DNA from: Pseudanabaena sp. Chao 1811
GTDB lineage: Bacteria; Cyanobacteriota; Cyanobacteriia; Pseudanabaenales; Pseudanabaenaceae
DNA length: 64,000 nucleotides
Assembly (NCBI RefSeq): GCF_027942295.1
Contig: NZ_CP101416.1
Span: 2,396,001 to 2,460,000, forward strand
Reading direction: 5' to 3'
The notes under the pieces were generated by a model, which did no database searches, was not told the origin of the DNA, and saw only the letters and a program-made list of their open reading frames with translations. The position numbers were made by a program, and so were the translations under genes. This document shows positions 5,834 through 41,999 of the stretch, piece after piece. Each line of letters opens with the position of its first letter. The first letter of the stretch is position 1.

Positions 5834-7750
5834 ATGAGCCAATGCCTCAACCCTAATTGCAATTACCAAAATTCAGAGCAATCGCCAAGATTGAACTTCT
5901 GTCAACAATGTGGCTCTAATCTCAAAATAGGCGATCGCTATCGGGCGTTGCGAATCCTCGGACAAGGTGGATTTGGTAGAACCTTTATTGGTATTGATGA
6001 GGCACTCCCTTCCTGTCCTACTTGCGTAATTAAGCAGTTTTTTCCTGCGGATCTTGATAGTGCGGTTAAGGCAGCAGAACTGTTTCATCAAGAGGCAATT
6101 CGTTTAGATGATCTGGGTAAGCATCCGCAAATACCAACACTGTTTGCCCATTTGGAGAATGACGGTAGGCAATATTTAATTCAAGAATTTATCGATGGAC
6201 AGGATTTATTAAAGGAGTTACAGGATCAGGGAGCTTTTAGTGAAGCCAAAATTCGGATGTTGCTGACGGATTTATTGCCAATTCTGCAATTTATTCATGA
6301 GCGCAATGTGATCCATCGTGACATCAAACCCGAAAATATTATCCGTCGCCGATTTCCTAGTAACTCTGGCTCGGTAGCGGCAGGAAGTCACGTATTAGTT
6401 GATTTTGGTGCAGCCAAGTATGTTTCCTCGGCTGCCATGATGCAAACAGGTACAAGAATTGGTAGCGCCGTTTATGTTTCTCCAGAGCAAGTGCGCGGGA
6501 AGGCGATCTTTGCTAGTGATATCTATAGTCTGGGTGTGACCTGTATTCATCTGCTGACCAATGTTTCGCCCTTTGATTTGATGGATATGGATGGGAATTG
6601 GATCTGGCGTGATTTTTTAGGAGAAAATTCCGTGAACCCCGTTTTAGGGGAAATTCTCGATCGCATGATTTTATCGGCTCCTAGTCAACGCTATCAGACG
6701 GCTCAAGCGGTTTTAAATGATCTAAAAAATGTGAACTCGCCTAGCCACCAAGCCTATGTGCCGCGATTTGCGAGACAGAATAATCAAAGAGCGATCGCGA
6801 AAACTAAGATCACACCAGTTACTGCACCGAAGCCCCTCATTCCTGCGATCGCCCCACAGCTATCACAATTTTCCTTTGAGACCGCAACAGTGATGGTCAA
6901 TCCTACTAAGAACCAAGTTGGTAATCTGGTTAAGCATCTTGGTATGGCGAAACTTTATTCAGCACAATTGCAGATTATTACCAAACAAAAAATTGGATAT
7001 TCCTATTTTGAAACCTTAGGAAATATCCAAGGTAAACCAATTGGTTTAGAAATGGTATTGATTCCCGCAGGCAAATTTCAAATTGGTTCACCAGCTAGTG
7101 AGGCTGAACATACCGCAGAAGAAAGCCCAAGACATGTGATTAATATTCCATCTTTCTTTATGTCGCGCTTTCAAATTACGCAAAGGCAATGGAAAGTATT
7201 AATGGATAATAATCCTGCGATTTTTATTGGGAATGTTGATCGTCCTGTAGAAAGTGTGTCATGGGATGACGTGCAGAGCTTTTGCCAAAAACTAGTTGAG
7301 CATACAGGTAAACCCTATCGTCTGCCTAGTGAATCGGAATGGGAATATGCCTGTCGTGCAGGAACAATTACCCCTTTTTGTTTTGGTGAGACGATCACAG
7401 CCAATCTCGCTACTTACAATGGCGCTATTCCCTACCAATATGCTCCTCAAGGAATTACTAATTCCACGACTACGGAAGTCGGTAGCTATCCTGCAAATGC
7501 CTTCGGGCTTCATGATATGCACGGCAATGTTTGGGAATGGTGTGAGGATACTTGGCACGATGACTATGATCTGCTGCCCAAGGATGGTACGGCATGGACA
7601 CAGGGCGGCGATCGCAGTTGTCGGGTAGTACGTGGTGGTTCATGGCGCGATCCTGCCTATTATTGTCGCTCTGCTAAACGTTATCGCAATGTCGCAAATC
7701 AAGGCGATCGCACTACAGGTTTTCGGCTTGCAGTTACGCTCAAGCCCTAA
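5834..7750 (+). CDS. Ser/Thr protein kinase fused to a formylglycine-generating-enzyme (FGE-sulfatase) domain
   Basis: The 638-residue protein has three parts. Residues 1-30 form a small zinc ribbon (CLNPNC...FCQQCG). Residues 36-300 are a Hanks-type kinase with GQGGFGRTF, the ATP-anchoring VIKQFF lysine, HRDIKPENII, DFGAAKY and SPEQVRG. Residues 400-638 are an FGE/SUMF1-like C-lectin-fold domain (GKFQIGSP, PSESEWEYACRAGT, HGNVWEWCED, VVRGGSW, TTGFRLA). Kinase-FGE fusions are known in cyanobacteria. The FGE part is probably a binding or sensing module, since true sulfatase maturation needs specific cysteines that I cannot confirm. It ends in a 20-bp palindrome shared with the convergent neighbour. 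Confidence 0.9.
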   Translation: MSQCLNPNCNYQNSEQSPRLNFCQQCGSNLKIGDRYRALRILGQGGFGRTFIGIDEALPSCPTCVIKQFFPADLDSAVKAAELFHQEAIRLDDLGKHPQIPTLFAHLENDGRQYLIQEFIDGQDLLKELQDQGAFSEAKIRMLLTDLLPILQFIHERNVIHRDIKPENIIRRRFPSNSGSVAAGSHVLVDFGAAKYVSSAAMMQTGTRIGSAVYVSPEQVRGKAIFASDIYSLGVTCIHLLTNVSPFDLMDMDGNWIWRDFLGENSVNPVLGEILDRMILSAPSQRYQTAQAVLNDLKNVNSPSHQAYVPRFARQNNQRAIAKTKITPVTAPKPLIPAIAPQLSQFSFETATVMVNPTKNQVGNLVKHLGMAKLYSAQLQIITKQKIGYSYFETLGNIQGKPIGLEMVLIPAGKFQIGSPASEAEHTAEESPRHVINIPSFFMSRFQITQRQWKVLMDNNPAIFIGNVDRPVESVSWDDVQSFCQKLVEHTGKPYRLPSESEWEYACRAGTITPFCFGETITANLATYNGAIPYQYAPQGITNSTTTEVGSYPANAFGLHDMHGNVWEWCEDTWHDDYDLLPKDGTAWTQGGDRSCRVVRGGSWRDPAYYCRSAKRYRNVANQGDRTTGFRLAVTLKP

Positions 7751-7788
7751 TGTTGTAACGCCCGCGTAGCGGGCGTTACAACATTAGG
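7746..7788. terminator. Bidirectional 20-bp palindrome between convergent genes
   Basis: A perfect 20-bp stem (left arm 7746-7765, right arm 7769-7788) with the loop GTA includes the stop codons of both convergent genes. It can serve as a terminator in either direction, although it lacks the usual T-tract. Its style matches the palindromic repeats elsewhere in the window. Confidence 0.6.
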
Positions 7789-10700
7789 ATTCGGGATGTT
7801 CTGTTAAGTCTAGTTCAAAGCTAAAAGTACTACCCTCACCGAGCTTACTCTGAACTGTAATTTCACCACCCATTTTTTTGACAAGATTTTGGCTAATCGC
7901 TAAACCTAAACCTGTACCTTGGTTTTTCATCACTTCTTCACCCGCCTGCTCAAATGACCAAAATATTCTACTAATATCAGAATCTGCGATCCCGATTCCC
8001 GTATCTGTAATCGCAAATCTAATCAACTCACGGAGGTTTCCTGATTGATGATCCTGTGATTGCGCCTTGCTCACTGCAATGGTGATTCCTCCAGTAGAGG
8101 TAAACTTGATGGCATTGCTCAATAAATTCAATAGGACTTGTCTTAAACGGTGTGCATCAGCATAGATATTTTCAGGAAGATCGGGGGCAAACTGAGTTGT
8201 CAAGGTCAGATTTTTATCAATAGCTTTGCGAGAGACCATATCCACTGTTATTTGCAGAAAATCCTCGAAAGATATTGTACTTGGCTGGATCTCCATTTTA
8301 TCAGCTTCAATTTTGGCAATATCAAGCAAATCTTGAATTAAGAACAGCAGATGCTGACTAGATTGATAAATCATCGTTGTAAATTCCTGTGTGTCCTTAT
8401 CTAGTTCCTCATTAAGTTGCAGAAGTTGTGTAAAACCCATGATCGCATTGAGCGGCGTGCGTAACTTGTTGCCCATGCTGCTAAGAAACTTACTCTTCGC
8501 TCGACTAGCTGCCTCAGAAGCGATTATTGCCTCAGATAATTCTTGATTTTTGGCAATCATTTGTTGCTTTTGGAGTTTCCGTTCAGTAATATCTTCGATC
8601 ACAATCAAAATCATTTTGCCAATATCACTCTGCTCAATTTGACAGGCATTGAGTAACATTGTGCGCGTTCCTAATTGCGAAAAATTTTGGGTGATTTCAT
8701 AGTCATGTACTGAAATATCCATCAACAATGTCTCATTAAGGAGCGATCGCATTTTAGGAATATCCCAATCTCTTCGTCCCAGATCGAAAATTGATTGTCT
8801 CTCAATCTGAGCAGCAGTCATTTGAAAAGTTTCATAAAAGGCACAGTTTGCCGTAATTACTTGTAGTTCAAAGTTAAGGACGATCAGGGGCTGTCGCAAA
8901 GTCTCTACGATCGCATTGGCATAGTTGCGGGCGGATTCTAAGGCGATCGCATTCCGTTTGAGCAAATTAATATCAATCAAACTGATCACAACACCATCAA
9001 TGCGATAGTCTGTAGTGCGATAGGGGCGAATCCGCAGACTATGCCAATGTCCTGTGCGATCTTGGACATCCTGCTCATAGGGAACCAAAGTATCAATTAC
9101 CGATGTCACTAGCTCGATTAGATGTGGAACATCAATATTGGTTTGAATATCGCTAAAAGGTCGTCCTACATCACTGGCAATCAAGTTAAATAGTTGCTCT
9201 GCCATCGGGGTAAACCGTCTAATTCGCAAATCGCCTGACAACATCAAAATCGGAATATTCACACTACTGAGCAGATTTTGCAAATCGTTATTGACTGCAT
9301 GTAATTGCATGTTGCGATTGCGTAACTCATCATTGATTGTACTCAGTTCCTCATTTGTGGCTTGAATTTCTTCCTTCGCTGTTTCTAGCTCTTCATTGGC
9401 ACTTTGTAACTCCTCATTACTAGATAAAAACTCTTCGCTAGCTACCTTGAGATCTTGATTAGTTGCCTCTTGAGACTCAATGATCGATCGCAAATATTCT
9501 TTAGTATTTTCTAACTCATAGGTGAGGCGAATGACTTCGCGTTCTGCTTCTGTTTGCCGTACTTTACGAGATTTTGATAGAGTCCTAATTTCTATGTTAG
9601 TGGATACAGATGGATTCGGACGACTCTCGAATAGCACTAAAAAAAAGCGATCGCTATTAATGCGAAGGGGGATCACATCGATCTTCACCAGTAGATTTTG
9701 CTGTATCTCAATGCCATCTTTACAAACGGGAATATTTTGGTATTTGGCACTATGAATCAGTGATCGTAACTCTAGCCTTAATTCTGAACGAGCCATTTTT
9801 AATAAATTCAAACTAGCTTTACCGGGGGCAGGCTCGAGAAAAGGGCTAGTCTGTCCTCGAAATTTTAAGATTTCCAAATTGGAGTCAACCGTCACACCAA
9901 CAGGAGCATAGCGATTTAAAACTACTTGATCTGCAATCTGTTCCAAATTGATATCATCAACTAATTCGGTTCCCTTCTCCAGATTTTTTGCTTCGGGGAC
10001 ATAAGTGCTTTTACCAAAGTTAAAATTCATCCGAGGCGGCGTGAGTTTACGCTGATAAATGCGATATTTTTTGTCAGTAATTTCAAACAAATCGGTGGCA
10101 TTACCAATCCCCTCAGAACTCCCCAAGATCAAAAAACTATCAGGATTGAGCGCATAGTGAAATATCGGCATGATCTTCTTTTGCAAGGATGGTTCTAAAT
10201 AAATCAGCATATTCCGACAACTGATCAAGTCCAACCGCGAAAAGGGTGGATCGCTAGTTAAGTTCTGCCGAGCAAATACGCATAGTTCCCTGACGGATTT
10301 ACCAATTTGATAGCCTCCCTGTACGGGCGTAAAAAAGCGTCTTAGTCGCTCTGGAGAGACATCAATTAGTAGATTTTGACTATAAATTCCCTGACGAGCC
10401 TTTTCGATCGCTATTTCGCTAATATCCGTCGCAAAAATTTGAATTGGATACCTCACAAGGTGTTCATCAAAAAATTCAAGTAAACAGATAGCAATGGAAT
10501 AGGCTTCTTCCCCCGTTGAACAACCTACTACCCAAATGCGAATTGGCAGATTAGAGGGTTTATTTTGACAAATTGTAGGAAATACTAATTTTTGGAGAGC
10601 GCTAAAGGATTCTGGATCCCGAAAAAAGCTGGTCACATTAATTAGAATATCGTGGTACAGTTGCTCAACTTCATGAGGATATGCTTGCAAATATTGGGCA

Positions 10701-11563
10701 TAGTCATTAAGTTTTTGGATATTCACCAGACCCATACGTCGTGAAATCCTCCGTTTGACTGTGCCTTGTTTGTACTGGCTAAAGTCTACGCCCATCTCAT
10801 CATGCAATAGCGAAAATATTTGGGTGAGCGCTTCTTGACTCTTCGCAAAAGTTGATGCAACTTCATCATCACATTCATCATAAGGATTCTCATCATCGAT
10901 CGCCATATTTGTAGTTTCACTTTTAATTTGGCTGATATTGACTAGTTCAGTCACGATCTCCGCAGGTGATAGGACAAAATCCACATAACCTGAAGTGATG
11001 GCAATCATGGGCATTGTTGGAAATTCCGCAGAGACAAGATCTTGCGCAAAGGTAACTCCCCCTACGGATTTGATTACTCCTAAACCTGCTGTGCCATCTT
11101 CGTTACTACCTGATAGTACAACTGCGATCGCGAGATTGCCACAATCTGCCGCCAAAGAACTAAAAAAGGCATCGATTGCCATATATTTGCCCCGCACGCG
11201 CTGCCGAGGTTCCAACTTTAATACTCCCTGCACCAAAGTCATCAAAGTATTAGGAGGAATCACATATACTGAGTTCGGCTCAATCCGCATTCCTTCACTA
11301 GCCTCATGCACAGGCATCTCTGTGGTACGTTGCAAAATCTCGCTTAATTGGCTGTCATGCTGTGGTGCTAAGTGTTGAATTAGTACAAATCCCATGCCCG
11401 TATCAGTTGGCAGATTTTGCAGTATTTTGGTAAATGCGTCTAATCCTCCTGCCGATGCGCCAATCCCCACAATCATGAAAGATTCTTGTCGATCTTGTTC
11501 AGGAGCTAATGATAAATCAGAGAAATCAGTTTCATTGGAATTCGAGTCTGGCTCGGAGATCAT
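7784..11563 (-). CDS. CheB-CheR-PAS-histidine-kinase fusion lacking the phosphoacceptor histidine
   Basis: This 1259-residue cytosolic signalling protein starts with a CheB methylesterase domain (about 28-215: GIGASAGG, LIQHLAP, SGSNEDGTAG, so the Ser-His-Asp set is present). A CheR methyltransferase domain follows (about 255-500: TSFFRDPESF, VVGCSTGEEAYS, RNMLIYL). Then come a heptad-rich coiled coil (about 655-755), two PAS-like domains, and a HisKA/HATPase module. The ATPase part is intact (N-box LLNLLSNAIKF, DTGIGI, GTGLGL). The H-box reads MGNKLRTPLNA, with Asn1032 (codon AAC at 8470-8468) where HELRTPLN is expected. No receiver domain is attached. Stand-alone chemotaxis partners are not nearby. 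Confidence 0.9.
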   Translation of the reverse strand: MISEPDSNSNETDFSDLSLAPEQDRQESFMIVGIGASAGGLDAFTKILQNLPTDTGMGFVLIQHLAPQHDSQLSEILQRTTEMPVHEASEGMRIEPNSVYVIPPNTLMTLVQGVLKLEPRQRVRGKYMAIDAFFSSLAADCGNLAIAVVLSGSNEDGTAGLGVIKSVGGVTFAQDLVSAEFPTMPMIAITSGYVDFVLSPAEIVTELVNISQIKSETTNMAIDDENPYDECDDEVASTFAKSQEALTQIFSLLHDEMGVDFSQYKQGTVKRRISRRMGLVNIQKLNDYAQYLQAYPHEVEQLYHDILINVTSFFRDPESFSALQKLVFPTICQNKPSNLPIRIWVVGCSTGEEAYSIAICLLEFFDEHLVRYPIQIFATDISEIAIEKARQGIYSQNLLIDVSPERLRRFFTPVQGGYQIGKSVRELCVFARQNLTSDPPFSRLDLISCRNMLIYLEPSLQKKIMPIFHYALNPDSFLILGSSEGIGNATDLFEITDKKYRIYQRKLTPPRMNFNFGKSTYVPEAKNLEKGTELVDDINLEQIADQVVLNRYAPVGVTVDSNLEILKFRGQTSPFLEPAPGKASLNLLKMARSELRLELRSLIHSAKYQNIPVCKDGIEIQQNLLVKIDVIPLRINSDRFFLVLFESRPNPSVSTNIEIRTLSKSRKVRQTEAEREVIRLTYELENTKEYLRSIIESQEATNQDLKVASEEFLSSNEELQSANEELETAKEEIQATNEELSTINDELRNRNMQLHAVNNDLQNLLSSVNIPILMLSGDLRIRRFTPMAEQLFNLIASDVGRPFSDIQTNIDVPHLIELVTSVIDTLVPYEQDVQDRTGHWHSLRIRPYRTTDYRIDGVVISLIDINLLKRNAIALESARNYANAIVETLRQPLIVLNFELQVITANCAFYETFQMTAAQIERQSIFDLGRRDWDIPKMRSLLNETLLMDISVHDYEITQNFSQLGTRTMLLNACQIEQSDIGKMILIVIEDITERKLQKQQMIAKNQELSEAIIASEAASRAKSKFLSSMGNKLRTPLNAIMGFTQLLQLNEELDKDTQEFTTMIYQSSQHLLFLIQDLLDIAKIEADKMEIQPSTISFEDFLQITVDMVSRKAIDKNLTLTTQFAPDLPENIYADAHRLRQVLLNLLSNAIKFTSTGGITIAVSKAQSQDHQSGNLRELIRFAITDTGIGIADSDISRIFWSFEQAGEEVMKNQGTGLGLAISQNLVKKMGGEITVQSKLGEGSTFSFELDLTEHPES

Positions 11564-12201: not shown

Positions 12202-15200
12202 TTAGCTGCCACCGATACGGGCAACATCACGGGAGTTGGCTTCAAAGGCGGCATTGAGGGCATCGTCACCACTCAAACCATCTTCCAAGGCTTCCTTAAT
12301 TGCTTGCAATACCCGCTTGTAATCCTTCGGCATTACCTTCACGAATTTAGGAACACTCGCATTCCAATCAGCGAGAACCTTCGCACCCTTAGCGCTCTCC
12401 GTATAGTCAACATGCTGCTGAATCAACTGCTTGAGATCCTTGATTTCTTCGGGATCTTCGAGTTTCTCTAAGCCGACCATTGAGGTATTGCAACGGGTTG
12501 CGAAGTCACCTGACTCATCGAGAATGTAAGCAACACCGCCACTCATACCAGCCGCGAAGTTCCGTCCTGTTAAACCGAGAACGACAACTTTTCCGCCAGT
12601 CATATATTCGCAACCATGATCGCCGATGCCTTCAACTACAGCATTTACGCCAGAGTTCCGCACACAGAAGCGTTCGCCAGCAATACCGCGAATGTAAGCT
12701 TCGCCACTAGTTGCACCATAGAAGGCAACATTACCTGCAATGATGTTCTCTTCGGCGACAAAGGTAGAAGCTTTGTGGGGATAGAGAATGATCTTACCGC
12801 CGCTTAGACCTTTGCCGAGGTAGTCGTTGGTGTCGCCTTCTAGTTCCATGGTTACACCAGAGGGAACGAATGCACCAAAGCTTTGACCAGCCGTACCTTG
12901 GAAATGCAGATGTACGGTGTCATCGGGCAATCCTTCCCAATGGCGCTTGGTAATTTCGTTACCGAGGATGGTTCCGACCGCACGATTGATATTCTTGATG
13001 GGAACTGTGGCATGGACAGGTTCTCCATCAACGATCGCTGCTTGGCATAAATCTAACAACACAGTCATATCAAGGGATTTATCCAAACCGTGATCCTGTG
13101 GGATTTGGGCATAGCGACCAACATCTTCACCGACTTCGGGCTGATAGAGAATCTTGGAGAAGTCTAAGCCTTTGGCTTTCCAATGCTCGACGGCTTGCTT
13201 GGCTTCGAGGACATCGGTACGACCGACCATTTCATCAAGGGTACGGAAGCCTAACTGTGCCATTAGTTCGCGCACTTCTTGAGCGATGAAGGTCATGAAA
13301 TTGACGGTGTGGGCGGGATCGCCTGTGAACTTCTCGCGCAACTGAGGATCTTGGGTGGCAACTCCGACGGGGCAGGTGTTGAGATGGCAGACGCGCATCA
13401 TGATACAGCCTAAAGTAACAAGGGGAGCGGTGGCAAAGCCGAACTCTTCAGCACCAAGTAAAGCGGCGATGACGACATCACGACCTGTTTTCATTTGTCC
13501 ATCGGTTTCCACAACGATGCGGCTACGGAGGTTATTGAGAACGAGGGTTTGGTGGGTTTCTGCGAGTCCGAGTTCCCAAGGTAAGCCTGCGTGCTTGATC
13601 GAGGTTTGGGGAGATGCGCCAGTGCCACCGTCATAGCCAGAGATCAGCACCACATCGGCATGGGCTTTGGAAACCCCTGCGGCGATCGTGCCAACACCAA
13701 CTTCCGAAACTAGCTTAACGCTGATACGGGCAGCGCGATTGGCATTTTTGAGATCGTGAATCAACTCGGCGAGGTCTTCGATGGAGTAGATGTCATGGTG
13801 AGGAGGTGGCGAAATTAAACCAACCCCTGGGGTGGAGTGACGGACTTTGGCGATCCAAGGATAGACTTTCTTGCCAGGAAGTTGTCCGCCTTCCCCTGGT
13901 TTTGCTCCTTGAGCCATTTTGATTTGAATCTCTTTGGCTTGGGAGAGATAGAGGCTAGTTACACCGAAACGTCCAGAGGCTACCTGTTTGATGGCGCTAT
14001 TTTTGGAATCACCTTGCTCGTTTGTCCATGTGTAACGTTCAGGATCTTCGCCGCCTTCACCTGTGTTGGATTTGCCACCAATGCGATTCATAGCGATCGC
14101 TAAAGCTTCGTGGGCTTCCTTAGAAATGGAACCGTAACTCATCGCGCCAGTTTTGAAGCGACGGAGAATGCTTTCAATAGGTTCTACTTCCTCAAGAGGA
14201 ATTGATTCACGGGATTTGAAATCAAGCAAGCCACGAAGGGTGAAATGCTGCTGATTCTGCTCATTGACCAGAGAGGAGTATTTCTTGAACTGCTCGTAAT
14301 TACCTTCACGGACAGCCTTTTGCAGAGCATGGATAGTTTCAGGACTGAACAAGTGGGCTTCGCCTTCCTTGCGCCATTGGTATTCGCCGCCAACATCGAG
14401 AGTATTACCACTAGCGGGACGGTCGGGGAAAGCATGGGTATGACGAGCGATCGCTTCTTTAGCGATTACTTCCAAATTAGCCCCTTCAATGCGGGAGGCT
14501 GTCCAAGTGAAGTATTGCTTGATTACTTCTTGATTCAAGCCAACGGCTTCAAAGATTTGAGCGCCGCGATAGCTTTGGATCGTGGAAATACCAATTTTAG
14601 AAGCAACTTTAGTTACGCCCTTAGTAGCTGACTTGATGTAGTTCTTAACCGCAGTTTTATAATCGACATTTACCAGCAAGCCTTGCTTGATCATGTCACT
14701 GATGCTTTCAAAGGCAAGGTAAGGATTGATCGCGCCGCAACCATAGCCAATCAAGAGAGCAAAGTGATGGACTTCTCTAGGTTCGCCAGATTCGAGGACG
14801 AGTCCGACTCTAGTACGGGTTCCTGTGCGGATGAGATGGTGATGTAAGCCTGAGACTGCTAGCAATGCAGGAATCGGTGCATTGTCAGGATTCACGCCAC
14901 GATCGCTTAAAATCAAAATATTCACGCCATCAGCGATCGCTTGATCTGCCTTTGCACAAATCTCGGCGATCGCTGATTCTAATCCCGATACACCCGATTT
15001 AGGATCGAACAAAGTCGAAAGAGTGACGGATTTAAAACCACCTTCGTTAATATGCTTCAACTTGGCAAATTCTGCATCGCTGAGAATGGGAGTCTTTAGC
15101 TCGATCAGGTGACAGCTTTCTGGTTCAGGTTTGAGCAAATTCCGTTCTGCGCCAATGGTCGTCTCTGCGGAAGTAATAATCTCTTCACGAATAGAATCGA

Positions 15201-16803
15201 TAGGGGGATTTGTAACCTGTGCAAATAGCTGTTGGAAATAATCGTAGAGAAGTTTGGGACGATTAGAAAGAACGGCAAGAGGAGCATCATTTCCCATTGC
15301 GCCTACAGCTTCCACGCCATCCCGCGCCATTGGTGTTAACAGCAAGCGCAAATCTTCAAAGGAATAACCGAAAGCCATTTGACGCTGTGTGAGGGGAATT
15401 GCTTCTGGTGCGGAGACTTCCGCATCCTTGAGACTAGCGATTTCGACCATATGCTGATTAATCCACTCACGGTAGGGATGCTCGGTCGCGATTTGATGCT
15501 TGATCTCTTCATCGGCAACAATCCGACCTTCCTGCATATTCACCAGAAACATGCGTCCTGGTTGCAAGCGCCCCTTGGATTCGATGCGTTCAGGTTCAAT
15601 TTGTAATACCCCTGCTTCCGAAGCGAAGATTACCAAATCATCCTTGGTGACATAGTAGCGCGAAGGACGTAAACCATTGCGATCCAAGACTGCGCCGATC
15701 ATTGTGCCATCGGTGAAGGCGATCGAAGCAGGACCATCCCAAGGTTCCATTAAACAGGAATGATATTCATAAAATGCTTTCTTCTCGTCACTCATGGACT
15801 CATGGGCAGTCCAAGGTTCAGGAATCATCATCATCATCGCGTGAGGCAGCGATCGCCCTGCCAGCACCAACAATTCTAAAGCGTTATCAAAAATCGTGGA
15901 GTCGCTACCTTCGATGTTAATCACAGGCTTGATTTTGGAAATGTCATCACCAAACAAATCCGACTCAAACATGGACTGACGGGCAATCATCCAGTTAGTA
16001 TTGCCGCGCAAAGTATTGATCTCACCATTGTGAGCAATGTAGCGGTAAGGGTGCGATCGCTCCCAGCTAGGGAAAGTATTGGTACTAAAGCGGGAGTGAA
16101 CCAGAGCCAGAGCGCTCTCCATATCGGGATCACGCAAATCATGGGCGTAGTACATTCCCACTTGTGCCGTCATCAACATCCCTTTATAAACGATGGTGCG
16201 ACAGGAAAGGCTAGAAGGATACCAGTAAGGATCAACGTTCGCGGCGCGAATGGCGGTATGGGCAAGCTTACGCAGTACAAATAATTTGCGATCAAAGGCG
16301 AGGTCATCAACAAGATCAGGCGATCGCTGGATAAATACCTGTTGCATAAAAGGCTCACTGGACTGAGCTGTTGCTCCCAAAGAGGAATTATCGGTGGGGA
16401 CATCGCGCCAACCGAGAACCTTCAAACCTTCTGCTTCTACTAACTTCTCAAAGATCTGTCTTCCCTTTTTACGCGCCTCAGCGTCGGGAGAAGCGTAAAC
16501 CATGCCAACCCCATAATGCCCTGCTTCAGGTAAAGTAATATTCTCTGCGGCTGCTACTTTTACCAAAAACTTATGGGGAATCTGCATCAAAATCCCAGCA
16601 CCGTCACCTGTATTTGTCTCACAGCCACAAGCGCCACGGTGCTCCAAGTTTTCTAGGATCGTCAGCCCCTGCTCGACGATCGCATGGGATTTTTGCCCTG
16701 ACTTATGGACAATAAAGCCGACTCCACAAGCATCATGTTCAAACTGTGGATCGTACAAACCTTGTTTTACTGGGAGTGCGTTGCTATTCATCATGGACTG
16801 CAA
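12202..16803 (-). CDS. gltB: Glutamate synthase large subunit / ferredoxin-dependent GOGAT
   Basis: This 1533-residue enzyme turns glutamine plus 2-oxoglutarate into two glutamates, the second step of ammonium assimilation. The class II glutaminase domain begins at Cys26 in EHDACGVGF, so a short propeptide must be removed. The FMN domain carries [16 protein letters not shown] and GGTGASP. The 3Fe-4S cluster ligands are in [15 protein letters not shown]. The C-terminal beta-helix is complete ([38 protein letters not shown]). No small-subunit gltD gene is adjacent. This fits a ferredoxin-dependent form (glsF) but does not prove it, since a distant gltD is possible. The start could also be Met4 or Met5. 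Confidence 0.95.
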
Positions 16804-26624: not shown

Positions 26625-28859
26625 ATGGGGATTGCAAGGCGAAAATTCTTGCAGGCGGGTCTGACTAGCCTGATCGGATGGCAATTTCTCACCCGCGATC
26701 GCGTGGCATTTGCCGCAGAGCAATTTGTCCGTCAAACTTCTGTCTCAGCACAACGGAAACGAGCGCTACTGATCGGGATTAATCAATATGAGGCAAAGGA
26801 TGATTCGCAAAACACTCCAAATTTTTCACAAAATACTACATCAAGTGGTTGGTTGCCCCTGCATGGCTGCGTCAATGATGTCGAGTTGCAGAGGGAATTA
26901 TTAATTCATCGTTTTGGGTTTGCCCCTCAAGATATTGTCACCCTCACCGATCGCGAAGCAACGCGGGCAAATATCAATGATGCGATTACAGAACATTTGG
27001 TAGCCCAGACACTCCCCGATGATCTGGTAATGATTCACTTTAGTGGACATGGCTCGCGCTTGGGAAACTACAATACACTGGTTCCCGTTGATAGTGGATT
27101 GCCTCAAAATCTCGAAAATTTGCGGGATATTACCCTACAGGAATGGCGCAGTTGGCTCCAGCAAATCTCAACAGATCGGCTGTTGTGTGTGATTGATGCA
27201 GGATTTTACTACCCGAATATCTCAACACTTGGTAATTTTCGCCTGCGATCGCGGGTTGGGCGTAATGACTGGCAAGCACCAACGGAAGTAGCCCAACTAG
27301 AGAAACAAGCGATCGGCACAATTTTACGGGCTGCATCGGGAGATATGCTCTGTGCCGATGCCCAATGGTCAGGATTTAGTAGTGGCGCATTTACCTATGC
27401 TTTAGTACAGCAGCTTTGGCAAATCACCCCTGCAACTACGATTAATGTGGTGATGAGTGATTTAGCAACCACCTTAGATCGGCGGGCGCTGCATAATGAC
27501 AATCTCTCCATTGACAAACAAATTGCGGCAATGGTGGAACTTGATCCTACAAAACAAAAAGCGATCGCTACTAGTACCTTTAACTCATTGTTAACAACTC
27601 CTGATTTTGGCTCCGATGGCGTAATTCTTAACAGCACTGATCGGCGTACGGCTGATATTAGCTTGGCAGGTTTCCCGATCACGGTTTTAAGTAATTACAT
27701 GGCAGGTTCCATTTTGCAGGTCATGGCAACCCAAGTTGCGGCGGCAACTCCTACAATCGCTAAGGAATCTGAAGCAACTCCCAGTCCATCTTCTCAACCA
27801 GTTGTAGCAGTTCCCCAAGCCACAGTCCAAGTTAAATCACGGACTGGGTTTAATGCCAAAGTTGAAATTTTAAATGATTATAGTAGTTTGCAAAAACTAG
27901 AAACAGGGCAGCTACTCCAAGAAGTTATGCGGGCTGTTTCGCACAATATCAAATTAGCGATCGCCCTCGATGGCGGCTTGAGCAAAATCGAGCGTGTTGA
28001 TGCCACTAGCGCCTTCTCGACTTTACCGAATATGTTTGGAGTCAATGCCAACGAGCAATGCGCCGACTGTCTCTTTGGCGTGCAATCGGCAAGCTATGGA
28101 TTATTTACGGTCGGACATACCCCCATCCTTGGCTCCTTTGGCTCCGTTGGTGAGTCCGTTGGTGTGGCTATCAAGCGATTACAACCCTTTCTCGAAAGCC
28201 TCCTTGCCGCAAAACTAATTCGTGCTACCGAAAATCAAGCAACATCGCATCTCAATGTCAAGGTGACGCTTAAGGCAATGATTGGTATGGATGAGCGCTC
28301 CGTGACAATTGCCAGCAAAGCTTCTGCCCGTGCAGGTCTAATCCCATCTAATACCGTCAATAATATTGCTCGGACAAAGCCCATCAATATAGGCGATCGC
28401 CTTGAATGCCAAATTGAAAACTTCAGCGATCAGCCCCTCTATGTGCGAATTTTTTGCCTCGATCCGAGGAGCAAAGTCCTCACCCCCAACTTTATCGCCA
28501 CTCCCTATGCCAACGATGGGGTAATTCCTCCTGCGGCAACCCTGACAATTCCCTATCCCAAAGCGCCTATGAATTGGGCAGTTTCCGCGCCGCAGGGAAT
28601 GGTTGATGTCCAAGTGGTAATTAGCCGATCGCCACTTTTGCAAGTAGCTAAGACTTTAGAAGCATCTCAACGCCAAGCTTCATCGCTCAATGGACTGATT
28701 GCCATTCCCAACCCACTCCAAGTTGCCCAAGCCCTCCTCGAAGATCTTGACCGTGCAGGCAAGCCCTCTGAGTTTGGCAATCTTGCGAATATCAGCGACG
28801 TATGGATGTTAGATGTCCAGCAATGGGCAACCTTCAATTTCAATTATCAAGTCGCATGA
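26625..28859 (+). CDS. TAT-exported caspase-like (C14) protein with catalytic Cys replaced by Gly
   Basis: The 744-residue protein begins with a twin-arginine signal (ARRKFLQAGLTSLIGW, cleavage after VAFAA likely). The p20-like domain covers about 45-310: KRALLIGINQYE, LHGCVNDVELQRELL, and HFSGHGSRL with the dyad His142. The place of the usual DxCHSG reads VIDAGFYY, so the catalytic Cys is Gly193 (codon GGA at 27201). The C-terminal half resembles the DUF4384-type region that follows caspase domains in cyanobacterial orthocaspases (GDRLECQIENFSDQPLYVRIFCLDP). It is probably a non-proteolytic pseudo-orthocaspase in the periplasm. The 279 bp upstream contain only weak short ORFs. Confidence 0.87.
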   Translation: MGIARRKFLQAGLTSLIGWQFLTRDRVAFAAEQFVRQTSVSAQRKRALLIGINQYEAKDDSQNTPNFSQNTTSSGWLPLHGCVNDVELQRELLIHRFGFAPQDIVTLTDREATRANINDAITEHLVAQTLPDDLVMIHFSGHGSRLGNYNTLVPVDSGLPQNLENLRDITLQEWRSWLQQISTDRLLCVIDAGFYYPNISTLGNFRLRSRVGRNDWQAPTEVAQLEKQAIGTILRAASGDMLCADAQWSGFSSGAFTYALVQQLWQITPATTINVVMSDLATTLDRRALHNDNLSIDKQIAAMVELDPTKQKAIATSTFNSLLTTPDFGSDGVILNSTDRRTADISLAGFPITVLSNYMAGSILQVMATQVAAATPTIAKESEATPSPSSQPVVAVPQATVQVKSRTGFNAKVEILNDYSSLQKLETGQLLQEVMRAVSHNIKLAIALDGGLSKIERVDATSAFSTLPNMFGVNANEQCADCLFGVQSASYGLFTVGHTPILGSFGSVGESVGVAIKRLQPFLESLLAAKLIRATENQATSHLNVKVTLKAMIGMDERSVTIASKASARAGLIPSNTVNNIARTKPINIGDRLECQIENFSDQPLYVRIFCLDPRSKVLTPNFIATPYANDGVIPPAATLTIPYPKAPMNWAVSAPQGMVDVQVVISRSPLLQVAKTLEASQRQASSLNGLIAIPNPLQVAQALLEDLDRAGKPSEFGNLANISDVWMLDVQQWATFNFNYQVA

Positions 28860-38513: not shown

Positions 38514-41500
38514 TTATGGCTTCTGTTCAGGGAACATACACTTATCAGAATCGCAACCCGCAGGGCCAGCATCCATCAACTCACCCGAATCATAACGCAA
38601 CAAACTTGCGTAAAAATCATCAGACTTGCGACGTACTAGCACCTCAGCACTGAGCTTCTCATAAGTTGCCTTATCGATTGGTTCAAAGGGCAAACGGGGG
38701 AAAGTTTGCAGATCATCAAAACGCGCTAATAGCGCCGCCGAGATATAACCCTCATCATCACGAATCGCTTCGTAAATCTTCTTCCCTAAAGGCTCGATTT
38801 CATGCTCGCGCAATTCCAAAGTTGCGGAAGTATTATGGCGAGTGTAATGCTTCTGCACCTGCATATAGAAATCAAACTGCGCCATCACATCGAACTTACT
38901 GATTTCCACCTGATCAGCACCGTCAAGGTCAGCCCAAGAAACACTCACAGGAATCTCCACCAACCATTCCGTACATCTCGGATCGAAAGGATCGTTTAGC
39001 AATTGTCCATTCTCATCCTTATCCGATTGCGAAGGAATGATGCTATAGCCATAGTCCATGCAAGCCCGTGCCACAGGATCTTCCTTACGGAAAGTGATCC
39101 GACGGATAAAGCGCTGCGCCTTCGGCGGATGCCATCCAGGGGAAGCACCAGTCAGTAAGGATTTTGTGCCTGCTGGTTGAGTTGTCGTGCAACGATTCGG
39201 GCGGCGTAAACCATGCGCGTCGCAATATTCCCAAACCGTCTGATGCACAATCTCACGCCAGCGATTTAGATAATCAGCTTCCTTCTCTTTGAAGTCTAGC
39301 CCCTGCACCGTGTCAGGACGACCTGCTTCCCACCAACGCAACCATTCCACACCAAAGGCATGAACGAAGAAATCAAATAGTCCTGTGAAGGATACACCCA
39401 CAATTGGGTCAACTTCACGGCTAAATTGATAGCGTTCTTCATTGAAGAGATGATTGAGCAAAGCCGCGACAGATAAAGCACCTGCCTTAAAGGCTTCTTC
39501 CTGTTCTTTCTCATTGCGAGGATTGAGTTGATTGAGATGCACCTCAGACAAATTGCAATGGAAGTCAGCCCCAGTTATTTCACCACAAGGATTGAGAGCA
39601 TAACGCTGTAATCTGTGTTCTAACTCACGTTCAGTGACTTCGGTCTGCTGCGATCGCAACCATTCTTTTCCTTCGCCTTTCACATAAGCCGCTAAGAAAT
39701 CACGCTTTAGTTCGGGAGTTGTAATCAAGTCTGCGTTAGAACGGGCGATCGCTTCACCCGCCCATTGAATTGCTCCTTCACCTGAATAATATTGCTTACG
39801 AACAGCATCAATACATTCTTGTTCAGTGGGTTTACGATGGAATACTCTTGTGTGGTTCGCCATTCTCAAAGCATCGCGCTCAGGATCGATGCGCCAGTTA
39901 CCTGCTTCATCCTGCTGCCAGAGATTATCCTTTGCGACAGAACCGAGCGCATCTTCAGAAGAGAATTGCCTCATACCTGCACTGTTTGAAACAAGAATAC
40001 CTTCACAAACAAACTCATGAATGGAAGCAACTTCAATGTCATAAGTCGGCGCAACTCTGACATCAAACTCAACTGATTTTACCTTTACAGGAATTAAATC
40101 TGTGCATTCAGGAATATATTTCTTCACTGTGAGTGCAGGCATTTGTTTGTGAACTGCCCCCCAATGATACTGATAGGTATTTACAATCGGTCTGACCATT
40201 GATTTTGGAAATCCATGATCATTAAATGACTTAGGACGAACTTTTTGGATTTGAGCAAAACGTAATGAATAAGTGGAAAACAAGTTAGCTGTTTTATCAA
40301 AGGCTGTTTCACCAACAGTGACTAGTTCACCTTCCCATTTACCTGTGCGCTTGCGTGTAGAATGACACAACCTAGCTGTGATCCCTAATGAAGCATAGAC
40401 CGATTGAACTTGACGCAAGAAATCAGAATGCACTGATGCAACTAACACGCCTTGACTAAAACAACCATCAGCATCTGCCAACCCAGCTAGGTATGCTTCA
40501 CGGATATTAGCAGTTGCCAACAATATGCAGTCAGGGATGTTAATCGAAGTAAAGGCTTGTTTGAATTGAGATAGATACTGATTGAGCGCACTAGAGTTGA
40601 ATTGAAGTTCAAAAGCCTTCGCTTTAGATTGTTCTGGTGTTCTCAGCGTATAAGTATCTAATCCAAATAGTTCTCCAACAGCGATGAGTTTATCAATGAT
40701 CTGTTGTTGGTCTTCAGAAATTCGGAACCGCACGCGCCAACCATCACTTCCAACCGAGCCATCACCGTGCAAATAGCCAATGAAGTAGGCGACATCTGCG
40801 GTAAGTGCAGGAATAGTGATTCGTTTAGCATTCGGAGCTAACGTTCCTTTGAATTCTGGCAATTCAGTCGCAGTACCAGTAATGGCTTTTGGTACAAATA
40901 TCAATCGGTCATCTGCCTTGAGATCTTTAGCTTTAACCATCCGATATGCGCCATATACATCTTCCAAGACTGCAACTTTATGGTCAGGTGTGCATTCAAA
41001 ATAGCCGTCTTCGGTTTTGATTCGGCAAAGTGATTGTCTACCTTGATCAAAGAAGTTAGTAACAGGATAGAATCCCTTACTGGTTAGCACCCGATCTCCG
41101 ATCCGAATTTTTTCAATTGGTACTAATCCAGATTCACTATGAACCAATGCCCCAGCAGGGAGACAACGACGAATATTACCAGCTACGATACAAACGGCGG
41201 CTTCATCGATGAGGATGCAGCACTCAACTGAGGTGAGTTGACGACCGATCGCTTTATTTAAAATGCTGGCGCAGCGATCATAAAGCGTAGGCAACTTGAC
41301 AGGATTTGCCATGCCGCCGAAGCCTTTGAGGGGTTCACCACTGGGGCGGACATCGCTGATGTCAACGGTGATTTGAACGGGCTTGGATGCGTCAAACTTT
41401 TCATCGCTAGATAGCTCTAGGAGAGACTGGTAGGACTTGACCCAACCTTGACGACTATCGCCAACATGGAACTTAACTGCATTATTGGCATAGTCAAACT

Positions 41501-41999
41501 CGACTTCGGTATTGTGGCGACGCTTTTCGACGGGGGTTGCCCCGATCGCACCGATGACATTGACTTGTAACTGGTTACGAATTACTGGCAATTGGCTGAT
41601 GTACTGCGGCTCTAATACGCCACCCGTGCCAGAGCCTTGCATGGCGAGATCCATCATCAAGCCAAAGGAGCGCCAGTCGATGACATTGGTGCTGGTGCAG
41701 TTGTAGGAGCCTGAGAAATTTTCAGGTCGATCAACCCAATCTGTACCACCGACCCACAACCAACGCCCAGAGGTGAGGGATTTAAGCTGCTTTTGCATCT
41801 TGTCGATCAGGTCAGCTTGTTCTTGGGTCAGCTTGCCTAGTGTTTTTAAACCTGTAAGTGTGCGATCGCATACCTCCGCCCAGCTTTCCCGCTTATTATT
41901 ATATTTGCGGCTATAAGTCCTGAAAAATACGGGGTAAGCGGCAGGAGCGCTGTCGGGGAATCTAACCTCTTGGGAGAGGCGAATAAATTCTTGCACCAT
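38514..41999 (-). CDS. nrdJ: Adenosylcobalamin-dependent ribonucleoside-triphosphate reductase (class II), intein-containing
   Basis: The frame codes 1161 residues, of which 394 are an intein, leaving a 767-residue enzyme. This is the size of monomeric class II reductases that reduce NTPs using B12 radicals. Host landmarks are FSGSYNCTSTNV (first catalytic Cys), MQGSGTGGVLEP, NPCGEI (radical Cys), TTQPAGTKSLLTGASPG and the C-terminal redox pair in GCDSDKCMFPEQ. The host sequence is interrupted after GNIRR and resumes at SAGMRQFS. No cobalamin riboswitch is apparent upstream. It makes dNTPs for DNA synthesis and depends on B12 supply. Confidence 0.95.
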   Translation of the reverse strand: MVQEFIRLSQEVRFPDSAPAAYPVFFRTYSRKYNNKRESWAEVCDRTLTGLKTLGKLTQEQADLIDKMQKQLKSLTSGRWLWVGGTDWVDRPENFSGSYNCTSTNVIDWRSFGLMMDLAMQGSGTGGVLEPQYISQLPVIRNQLQVNVIGAIGATPVEKRRHNTEVEFDYANNAVKFHVGDSRQGWVKSYQSLLELSSDEKFDASKPVQITVDISDVRPSGEPLKGFGGMANPVKLPTLYDRCASILNKAIGRQLTSVECCILIDEAAVCIVAGNIRRCLPAGALVHSESGLVPIEKIRIGDRVLTSKGFYPVTNFFDQGRQSLCRIKTEDGYFECTPDHKVAVLEDVYGAYRMVKAKDLKADDRLIFVPKAITGTATELPEFKGTLAPNAKRITIPALTADVAYFIGYLHGDGSVGSDGWRVRFRISEDQQQIIDKLIAVGELFGLDTYTLRTPEQSKAKAFELQFNSSALNQYLSQFKQAFTSINIPDCILLATANIREAYLAGLADADGCFSQGVLVASVHSDFLRQVQSVYASLGITARLCHSTRKRTGKWEGELVTVGETAFDKTANLFSTYSLRFAQIQKVRPKSFNDHGFPKSMVRPIVNTYQYHWGAVHKQMPALTVKKYIPECTDLIPVKVKSVEFDVRVAPTYDIEVASIHEFVCEGILVSNSAGMRQFSSEDALGSVAKDNLWQQDEAGNWRIDPERDALRMANHTRVFHRKPTEQECIDAVRKQYYSGEGAIQWAGEAIARSNADLITTPELKRDFLAAYVKGEGKEWLRSQQTEVTERELEHRLQRYALNPCGEITGADFHCNLSEVHLNQLNPRNEKEQEEAFKAGALSVAALLNHLFNEERYQFSREVDPIVGVSFTGLFDFFVHAFGVEWLRWWEAGRPDTVQGLDFKEKEADYLNRWREIVHQTVWEYCDAHGLRRPNRCTTTQPAGTKSLLTGASPGWHPPKAQRFIRRITFRKEDPVARACMDYGYSIIPSQSDKDENGQLLNDPFDPRCTEWLVEIPVSVSWADLDGADQVEISKFDVMAQFDFYMQVQKHYTRHNTSATLELREHEIEPLGKKIYEAIRDDEGYISAALLARFDDLQTFPRLPFEPIDKATYEKLSAEVLVRRKSDDFYASLLRYDSGELMDAGPAGCDSDKCMFPEQKP
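39984..41165 (-). other. Intein with LAGLIDADG homing endonuclease inside nrdJ
   Basis: The 394-residue insert begins with Cys (CLPAGALVHSESGLVPIEKI) and ends ILVSN, with Ser as the first downstream host residue. Splicing blocks visible are the N-terminal block A and block B (YFECTPDHKVAV, with the TPDH of a TxxH motif). C-terminal block F is APTYDIEVASIHEFVCEG. The two endonuclease motifs are YFIGYLHGDGS and YLAGLADADGCF, so homing activity is plausible. The penultimate residue is Ser, where most inteins have His before the final Asn. Confidence 0.93.

Follow-up and report, generated by a model that had tools for sequence, protein, structure and literature searches.

Loss of the phosphoacceptor histidine from a CheB-CheR-PAS sensor kinase in one Pseudanabaena lineage

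What becomes of a sensor histidine kinase, fused to a chemoreceptor methylesterase and methyltransferase, once the residue that it phosphorylates has been replaced? The question is raised by a gene of Pseudanabaena sp. Chao 1811 in a stretch of 64,000 nucleotides (contig NZ_CP101416.1, positions 2,396,001 to 2,460,000; hereafter the window, in whose numbering all coordinates are given unless marked otherwise). The loss of the H-box His is real, is specific to this lineage and affects a known kind of protein. The explanation we favour, with a probability of roughly 0.58, is that the histidine-kinase end of this CheB-CheR-PAS fusion recently became a pseudokinase in this Pseudanabaena lineage. 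The kinase part is probably dead, and the methylating and demethylating enzymes look intact.

Domain architecture and the altered H-box

The gene is present as a single copy in the 4.73-Mb, one-contig genome; of 94 places that match the protein, the only full-length match is the gene itself, and the 93 others match from residue 742 onward, in the PAS or kinase parts. Its features are collected in Table 1. A coiled-coil-like stretch, recognized by eye, precedes the first PAS domain in the long middle part of the protein. The CheB residues S37, H64 and D156 correspond to the Ser-His-Asp catalytic triad, and the motifs NVTSFFRD, GCSTGEEAYS and CRNMLIYL, read in the translation, to the CheR and SAM-binding motifs. 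Both enzymes are predicted to be active on the strength of these motifs, which agree with the earlier claim that the CheB and CheR active sites are intact. The same claim for the ATP-binding boxes also held, with N1150, DTGIGI and GTGLGL, as the N, G1 and G2 boxes, all read within HATPase_c. The F-box is FWSF rather than FxPF (P1203S, 7955-7957), a change common to the His-bearing protein of the sister genome (G021, 91% identity; hereafter the sister), unlike the other aligned HisKA orthologues.

Table 1. Features of the CheB-CheR-PAS kinase gene, in window coordinates.
Feature	Coordinates	Strand	Residues	Support
CheB-CheR-PAS-PAS-HisKA-HATPase gene	7784..11563	-	1259 aa	Open ORF; Pfam
CheB methylesterase domain	10943..11470	-	32-207	Pfam 178.3 bits; S37/H64/D156 present
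CheR_N + CheR methyltransferase	10067..10828	-	246-499	Pfam 55 and 179.1 bits
PAS domain 1	8969..9283	-	761-865	Pfam
PAS domain 2	8582..8914	-	884-994	Weak Pfam matches, 23-24 bits
HisKA (DHp) domain	8303..8500	-	1022-1087	Pfam 54.4 bits, cut-off 26.9
Altered H-box triad G-N-K replacing S-H-E	8465..8473	-	1031-1033	Codons GGC AAC AAG
HATPase_c domain	7802..8158	-	1136-1254	Pfam 94.5 bits, above cut-off

A Ser/Thr protein kinase fused to a sulfatase-modifying-factor (FGE) domain (5834-7750) is convergent with the gene and lies 33 nt from its end, and a large ORF that looks by eye like a glutamate synthase occupies 12202-16803. Elsewhere in the window, a ribonucleotide reductase-like ORF (38514-41999) has matches to intein-splicing and LAGLIDADG endonuclease domains, the former just below its cut-off, and is probably a B12-dependent reductase with an intein. 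A caspase-domain (metacaspase-like) protein with DUF4384 is encoded at 26625-28859.

The H-box reads FLSSMGNKLRTPLNA, and residue 1032 is encoded by AAC (8470-8468) in an open frame on the minus strand, exactly as the sequence-only reading of this DNA had reported. The change is broader than the loss of His alone, since all three residues of the S-H-E triad have been replaced, by Gly-Asn-Lys, and the triad codons differ from those of the sister (AGT CAT GAG) at five of nine nucleotides. The HisKA profile scores 54.4 bits here against 70.5 bits in the sister. The protein thus has the HisKA and HATPase_c domains of a HisKA-type kinase and lacks the phosphoacceptor His; the first DHp helix contains no other His, and H1071 remains in the second. 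The Glu that follows the acceptor His ordinarily belongs to the motif for catalysis and phosphatase activity in these kinases. Because the change from S-H-E to G-N-K removes both the phosphoacceptor and the adjoining acidic residue, loss of autokinase and of HExxT-type phosphatase activity is to be expected, HExxT being described as the transmitter phosphatase motif of histidine kinases (PMC5992135). The protein should be incapable of autophosphorylation, of phosphotransfer and of acting as a transmitter phosphatase. The earlier prediction that the usual route of autophosphorylation is closed to it finds good support in the missing acceptor, the lack of another His in the first helix and the missing Glu. 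Judged by sequence, this is a naturally occurring pseudo-histidine kinase, in a variant form with CheB and CheR fused to it.

A protein that still worked as a kinase through another phosphoacceptor would have an intact ATPase domain and H1071 to draw on. The second-helix His belongs to a motif common in HisKA proteins and is not known to act as a phosphoacceptor. With no His in the first helix and the acidic neighbour lost as well, we find such a kinase scarcely credible.

Distribution of the asparagine and variation at the output end

Among 26 Pseudanabaena genomes, one has Asn, 20 have an orthologue of the HisKA form with His, one (G009, locus L048) has a HisKA_2 kinase in place of the HisKA form, and four (G001, G002, G039 and G040) have no orthologue match at thresholds of E 1e-180 and 1e-120. 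A comparison of orthologues had been proposed with the sequence-only reading; it places the Asn in a single genome and not in the family, since each of the 20 other genomes of the genus that have the HisKA form carries His. Across the 39 loci examined, some of which represent one genome from two collections, 35 align over the H-box and all 34 besides that of the window have His. The four that do not align are L048, L050 and two fragments with the N-terminal half only (L055 and L066); loci L069-L135, mostly kinase-end-only matches, were set aside in this survey. A strict DNA-level search for the Asn H-box, M-x-N-[E/K]-L/F-R-T-P-L/F, which required an exact match and so could overlook Asn set in a different sequence context, found it in one of 291 sampled genomes of the class, the window's own, and a similar pattern was found in one of the 26 genus genomes. 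The His form of the class-wide pattern occurs at 462 places in those 26 genomes (summed from the table). As far as these searches go, the H-box Asn appears to be private to this genome. In the open-access PMC literature (titles and beginnings of abstracts), none of the matches listed names a natural Asn H-box or a CheB-CheR-PAS fusion as a pseudokinase.

A change seen in one assembly invites the suspicion of a sequencing or assembly error at the H-box, and the genomes examined included no other one from this species. Such an error would have to introduce several substitutions within 9 nt of a one-contig genome with 99.69% completeness, and of the five nucleotides that differ from the sister, two lie at third positions and are silent, the kind of change that real divergence produces. 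Comparable clusters also occur elsewhere, in genes of conserved order: across 8901 codons of 17 ORFs compared with the sister, 25 overlapping three-codon windows have at least five nucleotide differences, and 11 overlapping windows, one at a doubtful N-terminus, have all three codons changed. We therefore regard an error as very improbable. Since such clusters also occur elsewhere, clustering is neither evidence of error nor, by itself, of selection; the cluster alone is not unusual by rate, but its position on the catalytic triad is.

The orthologues (L031-L047 and L207), which carry S-H-E, represent the same gene, are 68-91% identical over their full length and share the domain order of the window's protein (Pfam run on L031 and L033). 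Their output end is labile. Of the 19 full-length HisKA forms of the genus, the window's included, 13 end in a C-terminal receiver and six do not, the window's clade being among those without. Response_reg was confirmed in L033 and the other receivers were assigned from a length of >1400 aa and receiver-like tails, the genus fragments L051 and L052 being left out of the count. When L048, L049 and L050 are scored as lacking the receiver, its distribution over the tree calls for four gains or losses. The kinase itself varies too, as L048 carries a HisKA_2 kinase and L050, from another family of the class, carries none: its gene ends after the second PAS domain at a stop codon well inside the contig stretch, with no kinase ORF of >90 aa within 1.5 kb after the stop. 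L050 is the single kinase-free relative seen. Because the receiver, the HisKA_2 swap and the absence of a kinase vary among relatives, the CheB-CheR-PAS part is the stable core in those relatives that were seen.

Selection and divergence from the sister

Between the window gene and its sister there are 228 synonymous and 116 nonsynonymous differences, and dN/dS is 0.12. Amino acid changes polarised by L032 number 39 on the window branch and 32 on the sister branch. At 484 positions that are invariant in 17 other orthologues (a set that includes one fragment, L051), the window lineage alone changed six (Q46K, A190T, I827V, S1031G, H1032N and E1033K), which include the three of the triad, and the sister alone changed three, none of them in the kinase. 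We looked for relaxed selection on the kinase end of the window branch in counts of synonymous and nonsynonymous changes against the sister and did not see it: outside the triad, the kinase region has 18 synonymous and 13 nonsynonymous changes on the window branch and 16 and 13 on the sister branch, with 20 sites that could not be polarised. In the CheB-CheR and PAS parts, too, the two branches do not differ significantly.

As a rough estimate, a simple Poisson bound, which assumes dS to be split evenly over both branches, leaves room for no more than about 10% of the window branch to have evolved neutrally in the kinase region. With constraint on this region, the triad aside, matching that in the sister, the loss of His either is recent or has been accompanied by lasting constraint ever since. 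Decay of the kinase region is no faster than in the sister, and a useful pseudokinase would show this pattern too. Two other changes at invariant kinase positions, at 1172 and P1203S, are shared by both sisters, and a mild loosening of the ATPase part may on this account predate the loss of His.

The same figures bear on early pseudogenisation, in which the whole protein is being lost and the H-box is the first casualty. Three invariant residues changed together and kinase output modules have been lost or swapped in some orthologues, as such decay might have it; the 1259-codon frame is intact, however, under the low dN/dS given above, and the CheB-CheR and PAS parts show no departure from the sister branch. 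We consider decay of the whole protein improbable.

Silent divergence from the sister is about threefold the gene average in HisKA (dS of 1.07 vs. 0.34, with 23 synonymous differences in 66 codons), and a small conversion tract around the H-box is for this reason possible but unproven. The best other match to the H-box DNA in the same genome (G000:C1:2178148-2178195, 85% identical over 48 nt) lies inside the kinase gene L029, which reads AGC CAC GAG and was ruled out as donor of the Asn.

Among the 93 other matching places in the genome, the H-box was aligned in 84 and read by translation in eight of the remaining nine, the ninth (L198) comprising the PAS part only; in L174, L175, L184 and L196 the presence of His was judged from the lack of an alignment flag alone. 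One other kinase without the H-box His was found among those checked, L190 (G000:C1:1290608-1291282, minus strand), which reads LPQELNTPL with Gln (CAG) in its place. His (CAC) is present in the sister's copy of L190, which is 93% identical, and His is likewise found in the 17 further relatives that were aligned (18 of the 23 matches in six genomes were fetched). A further candidate, L178, had been flagged by alignment and was rejected when its translation was found to have His (AHDFNN). Two losses since the split from the sister, His to Asn here, in a kinase core that otherwise stays constrained, and His to Gln in L190, could be taken to mean that the strain is converting sensor kinases to pseudokinases by selection, the dead CheB-CheR-PAS kinase then sensing the state of a response regulator or of ATP and directly setting chemoreceptor methylation, an idea that we hold to be a long shot.

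Comparison with known pseudokinases and possible function

A different account of the constraint is that the protein is a functional pseudokinase in the manner of DivL, in which the dead DHp-CA part persists as a binding module for a partner kinase or a phosphorylated response regulator and relays this to CheB and CheR through the PAS coils. DivL of Caulobacter is described as having Tyr at the H-box site, neither kinase nor phosphatase activity and a sensing role; its homologues are reported to share the Tyr, apart from a single named one with Ala (PMC4211667). A DivL structure is among 20 solved sequences that match the window's kinase core (E 9.2e-21). Like DivL as described there, the window's protein combines PAS with DHp-CA, has its phosphoacceptor His replaced and retains the ATP boxes; unlike DivL, it has Asn in one genome, has also lost the Glu and carries a CheB-CheR front.

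RetS of Pseudomonas aeruginosa, which also matched among the solved structures, is described as a non-autophosphorylating hybrid kinase that acts on another kinase, with a degenerate ATPase and an intact HExxT H-box (PMC5992135), the reverse of what is seen here. In Corynebacterium glutamicum, a form of ChrS with a frameshifted ATPase domain is reported to promote signalling via a paralogue (PMC9491836). Kinase activity was lost by mutation in that form, as predicted for the window's protein, and a signalling effect was retained; unlike the window's protein, the ChrS form arose in laboratory evolution and is damaged in its ATPase domain instead of its H-box.

DivL and ChrS (PMC4211667; PMC9491836) show that a dead kinase end can still signal, and the constraint outside the triad and the intact ATP-site boxes would suit a kept function of this kind. 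A recent loss accounts for that constraint equally well, however, and the adjoining genes, for the Ser/Thr kinase-FGE protein and the glutamate synthase-like ORF, supply neither a response regulator nor a partner kinase. Whereas the loss of His in DivL is long settled across homologues (PMC4211667), here it is confined to one of the genomes examined, and the case for an established pseudokinase function is the weaker for it; the conservation that would mark such a function as settled is missing. We regard a functional pseudokinase of this kind as unlikely, although it deserves serious consideration.

Under a recent conversion to a pseudokinase, which we prefer, the change from S-H-E to G-N-K would abolish HExxT-type phosphatase activity along with autophosphorylation. 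Folding and dimerisation of the DHp and ATPase domains would probably be preserved, and ATP may still be bound, their fold being kept either because the loss is recent or because it still helps to hold the protein together. The PAS and DHp coils would provide dimerisation and control of CheB and CheR, and whatever the PAS domains sense would reach chemoreceptors solely by way of the methylesterase and methyltransferase fused to them. MCP domains are matched at seven places in the genome with E of 0.001 or lower, and six of these exceed the family cut-off. Of the three roles that had been offered for the protein, action mainly through CheB and CheR agrees best with the relatives, given that L050 has no kinase end and L048 a swapped one; for a dominant partner or an ATP-gated switch we found no positive support.

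The window's genome thus provides a form without the His beside a 91%-identical sister with an intact triad, in a gene whose kinase end has been swapped or dropped in some relatives. The pair offers a simple test of what the transmitter domain contributes when CheB and CheR are fused to it, and of the steps by which kinases become pseudokinases.
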